From assembly GCA_019136395.1 (NCBI GenBank), contig JAGVUH010000484.1:1-14194 (forward strand): a stretch of 14,194 bases of DNA, in the 5' to 3' direction. This stretch comes from Gammaproteobacteria bacterium (GTDB lineage: Bacteria > Pseudomonadota > Gammaproteobacteria > Chromatiales > Chromatiaceae). The notes beneath the pieces were generated by a model, which was given only the letters and a program-made list of their open reading frames with translations, was not told the DNA's origin and searched no databases. Shown piece after piece: positions 1,312 through 14,177 of this stretch. Position 1 is the stretch's first letter, and each line of letters begins with the position of its first letter. Both the position numbers and the translations under genes were made by a program.

Positions 1312-2322
1312 ATGGATCTGTGCACCCAGTATCTCGGCCTCGACCTGACCAGTCCCCTGGTCCCGTCCGCCTCGCCCCTGAGCCGCAGCCTGGATAGCTG
1401 CCGGCGACTGGAGGACGAGGGCGCCGGGGCGCTCATCCTCTGGTCCCTGTTCGAGGAGGCCCTGACCGCCGAGACCGAGACCAGCGCCCGCTTCCTCAGC
1501 GAGCAATTCACCGGCTTCGCCGAGGCCGACAGCTTCCTCCCCGACCACCGGGATTTCACCCCGGAGCTGGACCTCTACCTGGAGCACCTCGCCAAGCTCA
1601 AGGTCACCTTGGGCATCCCGGTCATCGCCAGCCTCAACGGCGTCACCCCCGGCGGCTGGGTCAGCCATGCCCGGGCCCTGGAAGAGGCCGGCGCCGACGC
1701 CTTGGAGCTGAACGTCTATTACGTCGCCGCCAATCCGGACGAGGACGGGGCCGCGGTGGAGGAACGCTACCTGGCCCTGCTGAGCGCCCTGCGCCACCAG
1801 GTCCGCCTGCCCATCAACATGAAGCTCTCCCCCGCCTTCAGTTCCGTCGCCAACATGGTCCAGCGCCTGGAGGCGGCGGGGGCCAATGGCGTCGCCCTCT
1901 TCAACCGCTTTTACCAGCCGGACATCAATCTCGACAGCCTGCGCCTGCGCCCCGTCCTTCACCCCTCCACCTCCGCCGAGTCCCTGCTGGCGATGCGCTG
2001 GATCGCCCTGCTGTACGGCCGGGTCGGTCTCTCCCTGGGGGCCACCGGCGGGGTGCATGGTGCCGAGGACGCCCTCAAGCTGCTGCTAGCCGGGGCCGAC
2101 GTGGTTCACCTGTGCAGCCTGCTACTCCGGGAGGGCCCCCGTGCCCTGGGGCGGGTGCAAGCCGGCATCATGGCGTGGATGGAGGCCCAGGGCTTCGAGA
2201 CCCTGGCCGACTTCCGGGGTCGCATGAGCGCCCTGGCGGTGCCCAACCCGGCGGAGTTCGAGCGTGGCAACTACGTCCAGGTCCTGGACAGCTTCAAGTC
2301 CGCCCCCGGGGTCCGGGTCTGA
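1312..2322 (+). CDS. Dihydroorotate dehydrogenase-like FMN protein
   Basis: 336 residues with a dihydroorotate-dehydrogenase-type TIM barrel. The N-terminus MDLCTQYLGLDLTSPLVPSA carries the usual opening strand. IPVIASLNG and ALELNVYY follow in the middle, MKLSP (about residue 170) carries the FMN-proximal lysine, and ATGGVHGAEDALKLLLAGAD near residue 245 is the FMN phosphate-binding segment. The CPN signature that contacts orotate in true PyrD enzymes is absent (the equivalent reads LELNVYYVAANPD). It is therefore better called DHOD-like than a pyrimidine enzyme, and its substrate is unknown. The start at 1312 fits the family N-terminus; a weak GAGAGAG-type ribosome-binding sequence precedes it. 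It lies 152 nt after nifJ on the same strand, suggesting co-transcription and a redox role linked to the oxidoreductase (inference). The last eight residues (KSAPGVRV) run past the usual end and abut a yhbY fragment. Confidence 0.9.
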   Translation: MDLCTQYLGLDLTSPLVPSASPLSRSLDSCRRLEDEGAGALILWSLFEEALTAETETSARFLSEQFTGFAEADSFLPDHRDFTPELDLYLEHLAKLKVTLGIPVIASLNGVTPGGWVSHARALEEAGADALELNVYYVAANPDEDGAAVEERYLALLSALRHQVRLPINMKLSPAFSSVANMVQRLEAAGANGVALFNRFYQPDINLDSLRLRPVLHPSTSAESLLAMRWIALLYGRVGLSLGATGGVHGAEDALKLLLAGADVVHLCSLLLREGPRALGRVQAGIMAWMEAQGFETLADFRGRMSALAVPNPAEFERGNYVQVLDSFKSAPGVRV

Positions 2323-2624: not shown

Positions 2625-2800
2625 TCCAGCGTGAAAGTCACGGCAAAGTCTTTAGCGTAATAGTCACGGGAATGTCTTTCATTATCAAGGTCGTGGCGCG
2701 CCGCCTCATGACCGATAGCGTGAACGTCTCGCAAAGTCTGTTAATTTTCAGTTGGGTGGCCTGCCGCATCATGCCAGTTAGAATTTTGCCCTCGCTGACC
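2625..2800 (+). repeat. 63-nt repeat array A (one partial and two full units, plus a residue)
   Basis: Boxes related to GTTAGCGTGAAAGTCACGG begin at 2625 (partial unit, 26 nt), 2651, 2714 and 2777; the last three are exactly 63 nt apart. The block before the next unit is GCGCGCCGCCTCATGACC in the first full unit and GGCCTGCCGCATCATGCCA in the second. The same blocks occur on the minus strand at about 10584-10792 and 11403-11529. The array starts about 30 nt after the yhbY remnant and runs into the signal-peptide region of the glycosidase gene. Reading each unit in the shared frame gives SVIVTGMSFIIKVVARRLMT and DSVNVSQSLLIFSWVACRIMP, which resemble translations of the other copies. The box at 2777 (GTTAGAATTTTG) is largely eroded. 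Confidence 0.88.
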
Positions 2801-4504
2801 TTGGCCCTAAGCTACCTCCCGATGGCGGGCCAGGCCAACGACCTTCCCTATCGTGACCCACGCTTACCGGTGGAGGAGCGGGTCGCCGATCTCCTGGGAC
2901 GCATGAGCCTCGCGGACAAGCTCGGCCAAATGGTAATGGGGGGCCGCGACTGGGTCACGCCGGACCAGGTCACGGAATGGCGGCTGGGCTCCCTGCTCTC
3001 CGGGGGCGACAGCCCGCCGGCGACACCCAACACCCTCGGGGGTTGGGCGTCCATGGTTCAGGGCTACCAGGCGGCGGCCCTCAGCACCCCGCTGGGCATC
3101 CCCCTACTGTACGGCATCGACGCCGTCCACGGTTTCGGTGCCCTGCCCGGCGCCACCCTCTTTCCCCACCAGGTGGGACTGGCCGCGGCGGATGATCCCG
3201 ACCTGATGCGCCGCATCGGCCAAGCCACGGCCCGGGAACTGGCTGCCGTCGGCATCTACTGGAACTTCGCCCCCATGGTGGCGGTGGTGGACGACATCCG
3301 CTGGGGACGCGCCTACGAGGCCCTGGGCGCGAATACCGAGCGCGTCAGCCGGCTCGCCGCCGCCTATACCCTTGGCTTCCGGCAGGGCCTGGAGGCGCTG
3401 GATCCGGGTCTGCCCCGGCCCCTGGCGACCGCCAAGCATTACCTGGGTGACGGCGGGGTCCAGTACGGCAGTTCCCACTTCCAGATCAAGGGCGCCTGGT
3501 CGCGCCTGGATCGCGGCGACACCCGGGGCGAGGAGACCAACCTCCTGGCCCGGCACCTGCCACCTTTCCAGGCCCAGGTCGCCGCCGGGGTTGAGGCGGT
3601 CATGGTCTCCTACAGCAGTTGGAACGGCGTGCGCATGCACGGCCATGCCGACCTGCTCCAGGGGGTCCTGCGTCGCCAACTCGGTTTCACGGGACTGGTG
3701 GTCTCGGACTGGGAGGCCCTGCAATTCCTCCCCGCCACCGGCTTCGACCAACAAGTGGCCCTGGCCGTCAACGCCGGCGTGGATGTCCTCATGGAACCCG
3801 CTCGCACGGCGGAGGTGCTCGGCATCCTCCATGACCTGGCCAGCCGCGGCCAAATCTCCCCGGCCCGCATCGACGAGGCCGTCGGCCGGGTCCTGCGGAT
3901 TAAATTCGCCATGGGTCTGTTTGAACACCCAGGCCCGGTGGCCGCGGCAAGCAAGCTGGTGGGCAACAACGACCACCGCGCCCTGGCCCGGGAGGCGGTG
4001 CGCAAATCCCAGGTGTTGCTCAAGAACCAAGAGGCCCTCCCCTTGCGGCGGGGCCAACGCCTCCTCGTCGCCGGTACCCATGCCGATGATCTGGGACTGC
4101 AAAGCGGCGGCTGGACCCTGGTCTGGAGTGGTTTCCAGGGCGACAATAGTCGGCTGCCTGGCGCCACGACCCTCCTTGCCGGCCTGCGTCAGGTCGGTGG
4201 TGACGCCACCCCCATCGAATATTCCCCGACCGGCGATTTCAGCGGCCCCCAGGCCGACGCCGCCATCATTCTGGTCGGTGAGCCGCCCTACAGCGAATGG
4301 CTGGGAGACCGGGATGCCGATGGCCTGCGGCTCACGGTGGAGGACCAGGCCCTGATCGCCCGGCTGAGGCCCCAGGCCCGCAAGCTGATCCTGGTACTGG
4401 TCACGGGACGGCCGCTGATCCTGGATCAGGCATGGGCGGCCAGCGACGCGATCGTCGTCGCCTGGCTCGGGCCTCATGTTTCCAGAGGGGTATCGCCTGG
4501 GTGA
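2771..4504 (+). CDS. Secreted glycoside hydrolase family 3 (beta-glucosidase type), 3'-truncated
   Basis: 577 residues from ATG 2771. That start gives a signal peptide, MPVRILPSLTLALSYLPMAGQA, with an AxA-like site before NDLPYRD. Upstream in-frame ATGs (2672, 2708) lie in repeat DNA and would add a poor leader. The protein then shows the GH3 barrel: VEERVADLLGRMSLADKLGQM, a YGIDAVHG loop, the AKHYLGDGG Lys-His motif, MVSYSSWNG, and the nucleophile motif LVVSDWEA (Asp313). The second domain includes VGEPPYSEWLGD, the region that carries the acid/base Glu in barley ExoI-type enzymes. The family hydrolyses terminal beta-glucosides, here presumably in the periplasm. The reading frame ends at SDAIVVAWLGPHVSRGVSPG. 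The expected continuation (EGxGVADVLFG, then TGKLPFSWP and a GYGL tail, roughly 55-65 residues) is not found in any frame downstream, so the gene is probably broken. It sits alone behind a repeat array. Confidence 0.85.
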   Translation: MPVRILPSLTLALSYLPMAGQANDLPYRDPRLPVEERVADLLGRMSLADKLGQMVMGGRDWVTPDQVTEWRLGSLLSGGDSPPATPNTLGGWASMVQGYQAAALSTPLGIPLLYGIDAVHGFGALPGATLFPHQVGLAAADDPDLMRRIGQATARELAAVGIYWNFAPMVAVVDDIRWGRAYEALGANTERVSRLAAAYTLGFRQGLEALDPGLPRPLATAKHYLGDGGVQYGSSHFQIKGAWSRLDRGDTRGEETNLLARHLPPFQAQVAAGVEAVMVSYSSWNGVRMHGHADLLQGVLRRQLGFTGLVVSDWEALQFLPATGFDQQVALAVNAGVDVLMEPARTAEVLGILHDLASRGQISPARIDEAVGRVLRIKFAMGLFEHPGPVAAASKLVGNNDHRALAREAVRKSQVLLKNQEALPLRRGQRLLVAGTHADDLGLQSGGWTLVWSGFQGDNSRLPGATTLLAGLRQVGGDATPIEYSPTGDFSGPQADAAIILVGEPPYSEWLGDRDADGLRLTVEDQALIARLRPQARKLILVLVTGRPLILDQAWAASDAIVVAWLGPHVSRGVSPG

Positions 4505-4609: not shown

Positions 4610-4655
4610 CCCCAATGGCTTAGGCCGTCTTGGGTAGCACAAGCCACCGATGCCC

Positions 4656-4700
4656 TTACTCCCTCCTCCCTGGTGGGGGAGGGTTGGGCTGAGGGGGCTG
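4656..4700. repeat. CCCTC/GAGGG-type intergenic inverted repeat
   Basis: The stretch around CCCTCCTCCC (4661-4670) and GGGGGAGGG (4675-4683), followed by TTGGGCTGAGGG, has the form of the C-rich/G-rich imperfect palindromes (CCCTCTCCC...GGGAGAGGG...GTGAGGG) that are scattered in many proteobacterial intergenic regions. It lies between the convergent ends of the glycosidase gene (plus) and the 90-residue gene (minus), where a bidirectional transcription stop or a neutral repeat would be expected. Confidence 0.55.
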
Positions 4701-4733
4701 AACGCCTACGAGCGGTGTTATCTCTGGGGGATA

Positions 4734-7440: not shown

Positions 7441-8067
7441 TTACTTCCAGAACTGCCACCAAGACTTATCCCCGCCCATACCGGACATGCCACCCATACC
7501 GCCCATGCCGGACATTCCGCTCATGCCGCCCATGCCGGACATGCCGCCCATGCCCGACATACCGGACATGCCACCCATGCCGGACATGCCGCCCATGCCG
7601 CTCATCCCGGACATGCCGCCCATGCCCGACATACCGGACATGCCGCCCATGCCAGACATGCCGCCCATGCCGCCCATGCCAGACATACCGGACATGCCGC
7701 CCATGCCTGACATACCACCCATGCCGCCCATGCCAGACATACCGGACATGCCGCCCATGCCTGACATACCACCCATGCCGCCCATGCCAGACATACCGGA
7801 CATGCCGCCCATGCCGCCCATGCCAGACATGCCGCCCATGCCCGACATACCGGACATACCGCCCATGCCTGACATGCCGCTCATACCACCCATGCCAGAC
7901 ATCCCGGACATGCCGCCCATGCCAGACATACCGCCCATGCCCGACATACCGCCCATGCCAGACATGCCGCTCATACCACCCATGCCAGACATGGACGCAT
8001 GAACCACGGAGGCACCGGCAAACGCGCAAGCCATGGCCATCGCCAGACGCAGCTTATTAGAAACCAT
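7441..8067 (-). CDS. Secreted Met-Gly repeat protein (58 Met-X-Gly triplets)
   Basis: 208 residues from ATG 8067. This start has a strong ribosome-binding site (AGAGGAG) and opens a classical signal peptide, MVSNKLRLAMAMACAFAGAS-VVHA, cut before SMSGMGG. A longer in-frame reading to 8241 lacks both. The mature protein is almost wholly 58 consecutive triplets M-(S/G)-G (residues 26-199), arranged as MSGMGG, MSGMSGMGG and MSGMSGMGGMGG blocks, then a lysine/tryptophan tail DKSWWQFWK. There are 58 methionines and no cysteine in the mature part. I do not recognise the family. Methionine-rich motifs in exported proteins can bind Cu(I)/Ag(I), and glycine-rich secreted repeats form envelopes such as those of sulfur globules. 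Either idea is inference. Strong hairpins on both sides suggest an independent, well-expressed unit. Confidence 0.88.
   Translation of the reverse strand: MVSNKLRLAMAMACAFAGASVVHASMSGMGGMSGMSGMGGMSGMGGMSGMGGMSGMSGMGGMSGMSGMGGMSGMSGMGGMSGMGGMGGMSGMSGMGGMGGMSGMGGMSGMSGMGGMGGMSGMGGMSGMSGMGGMGGMSGMGGMSGMSGMGGMSGMSGMGGMSGMGGMSGMSGMGGMSGMGGMSGMSGMGGMGGMSGMGGDKSWWQFWK
7471..7992 (-). repeat. 9-nt-period tandem repeat encoding Met-X-Gly triplets
   Basis: 522 nt made of 58 nine-base units of the type ATG-(TCN/GGN)-GGN read on the minus strand. Codon third positions vary, but a 54-nt block (six units) is duplicated perfectly at 7683-7736 and 7737-7790, and a third copy begins at 7791. This points to recent expansion by slippage or unequal recombination. 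Length variation between strains would be expected. Confidence 0.95.
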
Positions 8068-8218
8068 ACTCGATTCTCCTCTGTTGGAATTGGTAATTGG
8101 CGGGGTAAAACACCCACGGGGACACCACGACAGCCAGCATACCGGCCCGGAAGGGGCAGGCAGAAAGCAGGAATGCCCGCCGTGGTTGACCAAAGGAATC
8201 CTAGTACAGGCCCCAAGC

Positions 8219-8265
8219 CTTTTACCCTGCCAGAATGTCACCTCAAAGTCTCTGGAGGGTAAAAG
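8219..8265. terminator. 15-bp stem-loop between minE and the Met-Gly gene
   Basis: CTTTTACCCT (8219-8228) pairs with AGGGTAAAAG (8256-8265). After a single bulged base, CCAGA (8230-8234) pairs with TCTGG (8251-8255), leaving a 16-nt loop. It starts 8 nt beyond the minE stop. The A/T-rich outer stem makes it a candidate terminator for the minCDE transcript; it lies about 150 nt upstream of the Met-Gly start and could also form part of that gene's leader. Confidence 0.65.
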
Positions 8266-10583: not shown

Positions 10584-10792
10584 GATGTCTCCTTGCAGGC
10601 TAACGATCAGCGAGGGTCTCGCCGCACCCACTTGATGACGAGGGCTCCGGGCTCTCTCACGCGGACTGGCATAAGGCAGCAAGCCAACCCAATGATAATG
10701 TTGGGTTTTCCCGTGACTTTCACGCTAACATTCATGGGGTGCCAGCCACACCCCAGACGATGAAAGTCTCCACTGGAGTGTTTCACGCTAAA
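10584..10792 (-). repeat. 63-nt repeat array B (three units plus a residual box)
   Basis: Read on the minus strand, units begin at 10792, 10729, 10666 and 10604 (steps of 63, 63 and 62 nt). The second is the best preserved: GTTAGCGTGAAAGTCACGGG, then a perfect hairpin AACCCAA-(8 nt)-TTGGGTT at 10686-10707, then GGCTTGCTGCCTTATGCCA. The first is diverged and has its own fold (CTCC-agt-GGAG). The third is heavily eroded (GTCCGCGTGAGAGAGC). The fourth keeps GTTAGCCTGCAAGG and ends at the hinT ATG. The array spans the recR-hinT spacer from end to end and starts within the last codons of recR: the recR stop TAG is the TAG of TTTTAGCGTGAAA. Confidence 0.9.
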
Positions 10793-11384
10793 AGCCATGC
10801 CGCCCGGCGAAGGCATGGGCCAGGGTGCCGCCATCGACGTACTCCAGTTCGCCCCCCAAGGGGACGCCATGGGCGATGCGCGTGGTTCGCACCCCCCGCT
10901 CGGCGGCGATGGCGGCGATGTACTGGCTGGTGGCGCTGCCCTCGACCGTGGGGCTGACGGCCAGGATCAGCTCCCTGAGTTGGCCTTCCGCCAACCGCGC
11001 CTCCAGGAGGTCCAAACCCAGTTCCTTGGGTCCGATCCCATCCAGGGGCGAGAGACGACCGCCAAGGACGAAATAGAGCCCCCGGTAATCCGTCGCCTGC
11101 TCGACGGCGACCATGGCCGAGGGATGCTCGATGACGCACAGCAAGCCGGGGTCCCGCTGGGGATTGGCGCACAGTCCGCACAGGACCTCCTCGCTGAGGG
11201 TGCGACAGCGCTGGCAGTGGCGGACCCGTTCCATCGCCGCCGCCAGAACCCGGGCCAGATGCCGCCCACCCTCCCGATCCCGCTCCAGCAGGTGAAAGGC
11301 CATGCGCTGGGATGACTTGGGCCCCACCCCGGGCAGGCAGCGCAGGGCGTCAATCAATTGATTCACCAGGGGTCGATCAGCCAT
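10788..11384 (-). CDS. recR: Recombination mediator RecR
   Basis: 198 residues (E. coli 201). The N-terminal helix-hairpin-helix is [24 protein letters not shown]. The zinc finger has Cys57, Cys60, Cys69 and Cys72 ([16 protein letters not shown]). The Toprim domain runs from [16 protein letters not shown] through [15 protein letters not shown], and [14 protein letters not shown] and [23 protein letters not shown] close the protein. With RecO and RecF it loads RecA on SSB-coated gaps. GGGAGG, 6-7 nt before ATG 11384, is a good ribosome-binding site and lies in a residual repeat unit. The end is odd: after AGRH only GF remains, and the stop codon belongs to a 63-nt repeat unit, so the native last residues may have been replaced. 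It follows ybaB on the same strand, the usual order dnaX-ybaB-recR. Confidence 0.97.
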
Positions 11385-11402
11385 GAGGCCTCCCGCGACA
11401 AA

Positions 11403-11529
11403 CTGGCTTGAGGGTGCGCGCCAAGACCATGTTAATGTTAGACTTTACCGTGAATTTCACGCTAACTGGCATGAGGCGGCAGGCCAGACCCCTGATAAAA
11501 AACCACATTCCCGTGACTTTCACGCTAAC
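11403..11529 (-). repeat. 63-nt repeat array C (two full units plus a residual box)
   Basis: Read on the minus strand, units begin at 11529, 11466 and 11403, exactly 63 nt apart. Unit 1: GTTAGCGTGAAAGTCACGGG, an A/T-rich centre (GGTTTTTTATCAGGGG), then TGGCCTGCCGCCTCATGCCA. Unit 2: GTTAGCGTGAAATTCACGG, then TAAAGTCTAACATTAACATG, then TTGGCGCGCACCCTCAAGCCA. In unit 2 the box changes from CGTGA-aag-TCACG to CGTGAA-a-TTCACG, keeping its inverted symmetry. The residue at 11403 (GTTTGTCGCGGGAGG) carries the recR ribosome-binding site. Unit 1 begins 14 nt after the ybaB stop, so the ybaB-recR spacer consists almost entirely of the repeat. Confidence 0.92.
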
Positions 11530-14066: not shown

Positions 14067-14177
14067 GGCGGGCCCCGCCAGCCACACCCCGGCGCCCACA
14101 TCCACCGCTGCGGCTGCTCCCTTCCGGGCCTGACCGGGTTCACGGCTTCGCGTCGCGAGGGGACCGACGGGTCCGCC
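14067..14177 (-). ncRNA. ffs: 4.5S signal recognition particle RNA
   Basis: On the minus strand the apical domain reads GGTCAGGCCCGGAAGGGAGC followed by AGCC. It aligns with the E. coli 4.5S core (GGTCAGGTCCGGAAGGAAGC, then AGCC), including the GGAA tetraloop and the A-rich asymmetric loop that bind the Ffh M domain. The closing strands are GGCGGACCC at the 5' end and GGGCCCGCC at the 3' end, complementary except for one A-C mismatch. This gives a molecule of about 111 nt, the usual size of the small bacterial form (ends approximate). It lies upstream of dnaX on the same strand, a common gammaproteobacterial arrangement. Its promoter would be at or beyond the window edge. Confidence 0.93.

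Follow-up and report, generated by a model that had tools for sequence, protein, structure and literature searches.

A 63-nt repeat family dispersed in one genus of Chromatiaceae-like bacteria and its likely origin as a mobile DNA element inserting 3′ of NTTAG

Repeat arrays around recR and the anatomy of the unit

The window, the whole 14,194-nt stretch of contig JAGVUH010000484.1 (GCA_019136395.1) that was analysed, contains seven hits of a 63-nt unit profile, spread over three arrays whose flanking genes were identified with Pfam as HIT, recR, ybaB and glycoside hydrolase 3. Array 1 occupies the HIT–recR spacer (10585..10791, minus strand) and is composed of two unit hits and a diverged third unit. 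Its first unit (10725–10791, minus) has a box of the subfamily B type, and the TTTAG of this unit includes the TAG stop codon of recR; the second unit (10664–10729, minus) belongs to subfamily A, and the third, read by eye on the same strand, extends down to about 10585 and ends in GTTAG. The recR gene, which carries the Pfam RecR domains, lies between arrays 1 and 2 (10788..11384, minus). Array 2 occupies the recR–ybaB spacer (11400..11529, minus) and consists of two subfamily A units (11462–11529 and 11400–11466). Array 3 (2625..2781, plus strand), comprising a truncated unit (2625–2653) and two full units (2652–2717 and 2716–2781), lies upstream of the glycoside hydrolase 3 gene (2795–4467) and extends into the gene start; its unit end, CATGCCAGTTAG, covers a possible ATG at 2771. 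The first-pass annotation had described units with this period in both recR spacers and a third array near 2625–2800, and all were located where it had placed them.

Three further features of the window were recorded. A second dispersed repeat, with a CCTCCTCCCTGGTGGGGGAGGGTTGGG core, is located at 4637–4704 between the glycoside hydrolase and the next gene, and BLAST matches to it at about 77–94% identity are found on many contigs of G001, the nearest genome compared, which has 20% of sampled 31-letter words in common with the window. An open frame on the minus strand (7441–8241) has a possible leader, followed mostly by repeats of the Met-Gly-Gly-Met-Ser type, and a bacterial small SRP RNA (14079–14169, minus) is the only Rfam match at gathering score.

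The element is 63 nt long and reads approximately CGTGAAAGTCACGGSAAAGTCTTTCATTWTCAGGGGTGTGGCGCGCCSCCTCATGACAGTTAG. The ends of the consensus are not inverted; hence, there are no terminal inverted repeats. Of 222 units of the genus, 172 belong to subfamily A, in which a 5-bp palindrome immediately follows TTAG; this box palindrome is absent from subfamily B. Profiles built separately for subfamilies B and C drifted to subfamily A and were dropped; units were typed by box sequence instead, which leaves 28 of the 222 unclassified. The step between chained units is 63 nt in 39 of 64 cases and ranges from 59 to 75, under a chaining rule that permits steps of only about 51–75.

Distribution of the family

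Units matching the profile (R1) were found in four genomes of the genus: at least 144 in G001, 53 in G002, 2 in G003 and at least 132 in G004, the counts for G001 and G004 being probably lower bounds, with up to 150 candidates scored per genome. On 1.14 Mb of G001, made up of long contigs already known for boxes or orthologous spacers, the profile gave 40 matches at E<0.01, against zero when that DNA was scanned in reversed letter order. Allowing up to two mismatches, the box itself was located 45 times in G001, whereas its reversed form gave no match; allowing up to one, it was present in four genomes among 55 relatives, and these four belong to a single genus. A search of 210 genomes of the order with a box shorter by one base gave matches in seven, namely the same four and three others with a single box each, in which the profile detected no unit; the reversed control of this shorter box gave one match in each of 2 of the 210 genomes. 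The family is thus dispersed in one genus of Chromatiaceae-like bacteria. The view of the first-pass annotation that the repeats form an unrecognised dispersed family therefore stands, since the profile search that it had proposed, run on relatives, finds copies genome-wide and not in the window only.

The exact 19-mer box is also present in three soda-lake metagenome-assembled genomes (MAGs) titled Thioalkalivibrio, in which the profile gave 4, 0 and 1 weak matches. In one of these, loci L074 and L091 contain units of a sister family, in which other repeats lie between the box and a related closing block; the middle holds a repeat of a different kind, with a GTAGGGCGG...CCGCCCTAC-like palindrome, and the arrangement looks like the insertion of one repeat family into another. 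In another soda-lake MAG, the closing block was not seen in most of the loci read. A two-unit query gave no match in phage and plasmid collections, viral contigs contained no match to the exact box, and no description of the present repeat was found in the accessible part of the literature, which is not searchable by sequence.

Empty orthologous sites

The sites of arrays 1 and 2 are free of units in G001, G004 and G002, and the site of array 2 is also empty in G003, with looser junctions. The first-pass annotation had allowed that orthologous spacers of close relatives might show the same sequence as ordinary non-repeated DNA; instead, the recR spacers of three relatives simply lack the units. 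Across 149 arrays, 28 usable orthologous comparisons were obtained, of which 8 are occupied and 20 have no unit hit. Among these 20, #90 contains a truncated unit and #109 a decayed one, and the junctions of #14, #97, #100, #111, #113, #127 and #128 are poorly aligned; clean empty sites are present at six loci (#17, #83, #84, #103, #104 and #112). An exact NTTAG is found in the relative for #17 (GTTAG in G004), #83 (ATTAG in G002) and #84 (TTTAG in G001), and the empty site of #103 reads CTCAG in G001, one base off NTTAG; for #104 and #112, two of the six clean sites, the relative has no TTAG. Other relatives differ, with GCTAG and AATCG at #83 and TTTAA and a TGA stop codon at #84.

Two further loci were recorded. 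At L115 of G004 (1509–1576, reverse strand), a unit lies in frame inside a gene, presumably pucC-like, that is uninterrupted in G001; the insertion of 63 nt keeps the frame, yet the G004 frame ends soon after, and this locus is thus weak evidence. The glycoside hydrolase 3 gene is located on contig C156 in G001, its window neighbours are adjacent on C78, and a half unit adjoins the gene in G001 too (C156:136821–136853).

The insertion boundary

Ends were well defined in 117 of 138 arrays, and the end analysis was performed on these. The first base of the left pentamer is G in 58, C in 27, A in 17 and T in 15 of these arrays, whereas that of the right pentamer is G in 108, so that the right end is GTTAG. 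The left pentamer ends in TTAG in 73 of the 117. In arrays with TTAG at both ends, the left base is G in 29, C in 13, T in 5 and A in 4, in contrast to G in 50 and A in 1 on the right; some arrays were found via a G-initial box, an effect that could only inflate the left G. Among 52 internal junctions examined, 37 read TTAG, and the first base is G in 36 of these. The end-base counts and the internal junctions together indicate that the left base belongs to the target and the right base to the element, TTAG being common to both. As the two first bases differ in origin, there is no target duplication.

The start of 19 arrays falls exactly on the TAG stop codon of a gene in the same orientation, and 13 arrays have their end exactly at the TAA stop codon of an opposing gene. 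Such sites account for 32 of 141 non-coding arrays from all genomes, whereas in 2.29 Mb of G001 they make up 177 of the 1,436 TTAG sites outside coding sequence (p=0.0004); for G001 alone, the array count is 18 of 78 (p=0.006). Gene calls were made with our own hexamer scorer, in which gene starts are rough. Beyond TTAG, information in the 20 bases of upstream flank does not exceed 0.31 bit per base. This scarcity of information counts against the rather improbable alternative that the units are moved by a double-strand site-specific recombinase of the tyrosine or serine type, acting through a 63-bp circle with crossover within the common TTAG, although crossover anywhere within TTAG would yield the same end bases and the stacking of whole units would be natural. 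Integron attC cassettes have GTT at the boundary, a similar unit length and serial insertion, as found here; the present arrays differ from them in frequently having a base other than G at the left boundary, and the unit shows no inverted core.

Growth of the arrays

Neighbouring full units, compared in 54 pairs, have a mean identity of 0.702, and units paired at random across arrays one of 0.704. In no neighbouring pair was the adjacent unit the nearest relative, and the best match at another place had an average identity of 0.846. Mixed box types, with unclassified boxes counted, occur in 22 of 56 multi-unit arrays. Because neighbours are no more alike than random units, the arrays are attributed to serial insertions in the same orientation and not to slippage. 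Replication slippage would produce head-to-tail arrays with a steady period, which these are, but neighbours in slippage-type tandem repeats are the most alike, most loci here (102 of 158) hold a single unit, and relatives have empty sites; ordinary tandem repetition of this kind has next to no probability, and as the main source of the arrays it is refuted by the unrelated neighbours. Mobilisation as dimers was likewise rejected, with only two pair-to-pair matches in which both units reach at least 0.85 among 54 ordered neighbour pairs, one array taking part in both. The suggestion of the first-pass annotation that the element spreads in tandem is thus retained as to a mobile element but not as to tandem duplication, given that each unit behaves as a separate insertion.

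Stacked units in G001 number 26; in 5,000 simulations with uniform use of TTAG, the mean was 8.7 and the highest value 20. This excess suggests that recognition is wider than TTAG and may include, for example, the adjoining box.

Orientation and RNA structure

The first-pass annotation proposed that the box keeps its dyad symmetry through compensating change, under selection on an RNA or DNA structure, and that shared gene-sense orientation at three loci argues for action in the transcript. The covariance analysis of the box arms that it recommended was performed on 177 units and revealed no covariation: for the box stem and two longer possible hairpins, each tested pair lies within 6 cells of the expectation from independent columns, three pairs of the second hairpin being about 5 above it, and the stem pairs occur at roughly the frequency expected if columns vary independently. 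The strongest column couplings (20–34, 48–49 and 20–53) correspond to no base pair, and those linking columns 20, 34 and 53 mark two sequence lineages. Gene-sense orientation is confirmed for all three window arrays but not across the genus, where 42 arrays have same/same and 56 opposite/opposite orientation to the neighbouring genes, without sense bias.

A structured RNA or transcript-acting element under selection is consequently very improbable. The arrays are mostly intergenic (141 of 149 are non-coding by our own gene calls) and hairpins can be drawn, but in addition to the absence of covariation and sense bias, fold and hairpin energies are ordinary for the sequences folded, the spacers have no Rfam 15 match at gathering score, and the one Rfam match within recR is at chance level. 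Once inserted, the units seem to degenerate without acting as RNA.

Comparison with known elements and the candidate enzyme

For IS200/IS605 elements, insertion takes place 3′ of a fixed target of four or five nucleotides, with neither terminal inverted repeats nor target duplication, according to the accessible text of the source (PMC7290912). The present units resemble this group and its ends-only, PATE-like derivatives in inserting 3′ of a fixed tetranucleotide without target duplication (with the two of six clean empty sites that have no TTAG) and, judging from the consensus, in having no terminal inverted repeats. They differ in that each element carries its own target at the 3′ end and stacks, and in that the search revealed no parent element sharing their ends: the Y1 loci identified by Pfam in the four genomes carry no unit. 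The hairpin near each end of PATE-like elements can be drawn here but does not covary. MITEs and, as far as the available sources describe them, enterobacterial RU repeats are likewise small non-coding mobile units in spacers; the present units differ in sequence and size and have neither the terminal inverted repeats nor the target duplication that characterise MITEs.

REP sequences are described, in the accessible parts of the sources, as 20–40 bp long (PMC3733652), with a tag directly 5′ of a small palindrome (PMC8266576; PMC3733652). Like GTAG REPs with their RAYT (TnpA-REP), the present elements occur in intergenic copies on the scale of hundreds, subfamily A (172 of 222 units) has a small palindrome directly after the short tag, and the genomes rich in them carry a single Y1 gene. 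In contrast to GTAG REPs, the tag in most of the 117 arrays is (N)TTAG, the unit is 63 nt long, the copies are arranged in head-to-tail register, and the palindrome is missing in subfamily B. A RAYT gene is flanked by copies of its family, whereas the present Y1 gene has no adjoining copies: no convincing unit hit was obtained in loci L052–L056 (best E 0.43), nor is there a nearby box. Just upstream of the Y1 gene of G001, locus L054 contains several short TTAGCGACGCGATGA-like repeats, which have TTAGCG, but not the palindrome, in common with the box and were not seen in G002 or G004.

One Y1 transposase gene is present in each element-rich genome (G001, G002 and G004), and the element-poor G003 (two units) has no match to it. 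This pattern, together with the palindrome of subfamily A directly after TTAG, reminiscent of group 3 REPs after GTAG in the sources available, would fit unusual REPs that depend for their movement on the RAYT-like Y1 transposase of the genus, a single-copy gene. Such a reading is doubtful, however: besides the differing tag and the lack of adjoining units, the Y1 gene scores under the NCBIfam REP-transposase cut-off, and G003, with which the contrast is drawn, has a completeness of only 88% and carries two fragments from other Y1 genes. The Y1 gene has relatives in 30 of 55 genomes. Of these, 27 lie outside the genus and gave no box, and in seven other genera without a detected box the relatives reach 60–66% identity; the gene was rejected as the specific driver on the basis of this wide occurrence. 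Among the soda-lake MAGs, one has a 49% relative, one only distant relatives and one none. In a weak test on 33 arrays, no clear GC-skew strand bias was detected.

Proposed mechanism and significance

We consider that the 63-nt unit is probably a non-autonomous mobile DNA element that inserts 3′ of NTTAG and that the arrays arise from later insertions in the same orientation. As the element ends in its own GTTAG, an insertion would retain the old target at the 5′ side and add a fresh target at the 3′ side, next to which later elements from other loci could insert in the same orientation, generating head-to-tail arrays in 63-nt register. TAG and TAA stop codons would serve as common, harmless TTAG targets. 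The geometry of insertion is like that of single-strand transposition by IS200/IS605 or REP elements, and a single-strand mechanism is most likely. The enzyme would act in trans on single-stranded DNA, most likely as a HUH (Y1; IS200/IS605- or REP-type) transposase, and this putative transposase may recognise the TTAG tag and a terminal hairpin. A 63-nt circular form, single- or double-stranded, would carry a GTTAG-CGTGAAAG junction. Several observations count against this explanation: units are missing beside the Y1 gene, Y1 relatives occur in box-free genera, subfamily B has no palindrome, hairpin energies are ordinary, two of the six clean empty sites have no TTAG, and the weak GC-skew test gave no orientation bias.

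In its behaviour the element is close to REPs and to ends-only IS200/IS605 elements, although defining features of both were looked for and not found. It may therefore represent, as we tentatively suggest at somewhat short of even chances, a new class of minimal mobile element, characterized by a self-carried end target, target regeneration, in-register stacking at about three times the TTAG expectation, a probably single-stranded mechanism and a putative enzyme supplied in trans. Tandem intergenic repeats are usually taken as products of slippage; here, with unrelated copies as neighbours, the array would document one insertion after another at a target that the element itself regenerates. 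Since empty sites, target tag and end polarity are readable in the sequence, the insertion rule of REP-like elements becomes directly testable, and the family offers a compact system for finding the enzyme. If the proposal is true, bacterial “tandem repeats” can arise without duplication.
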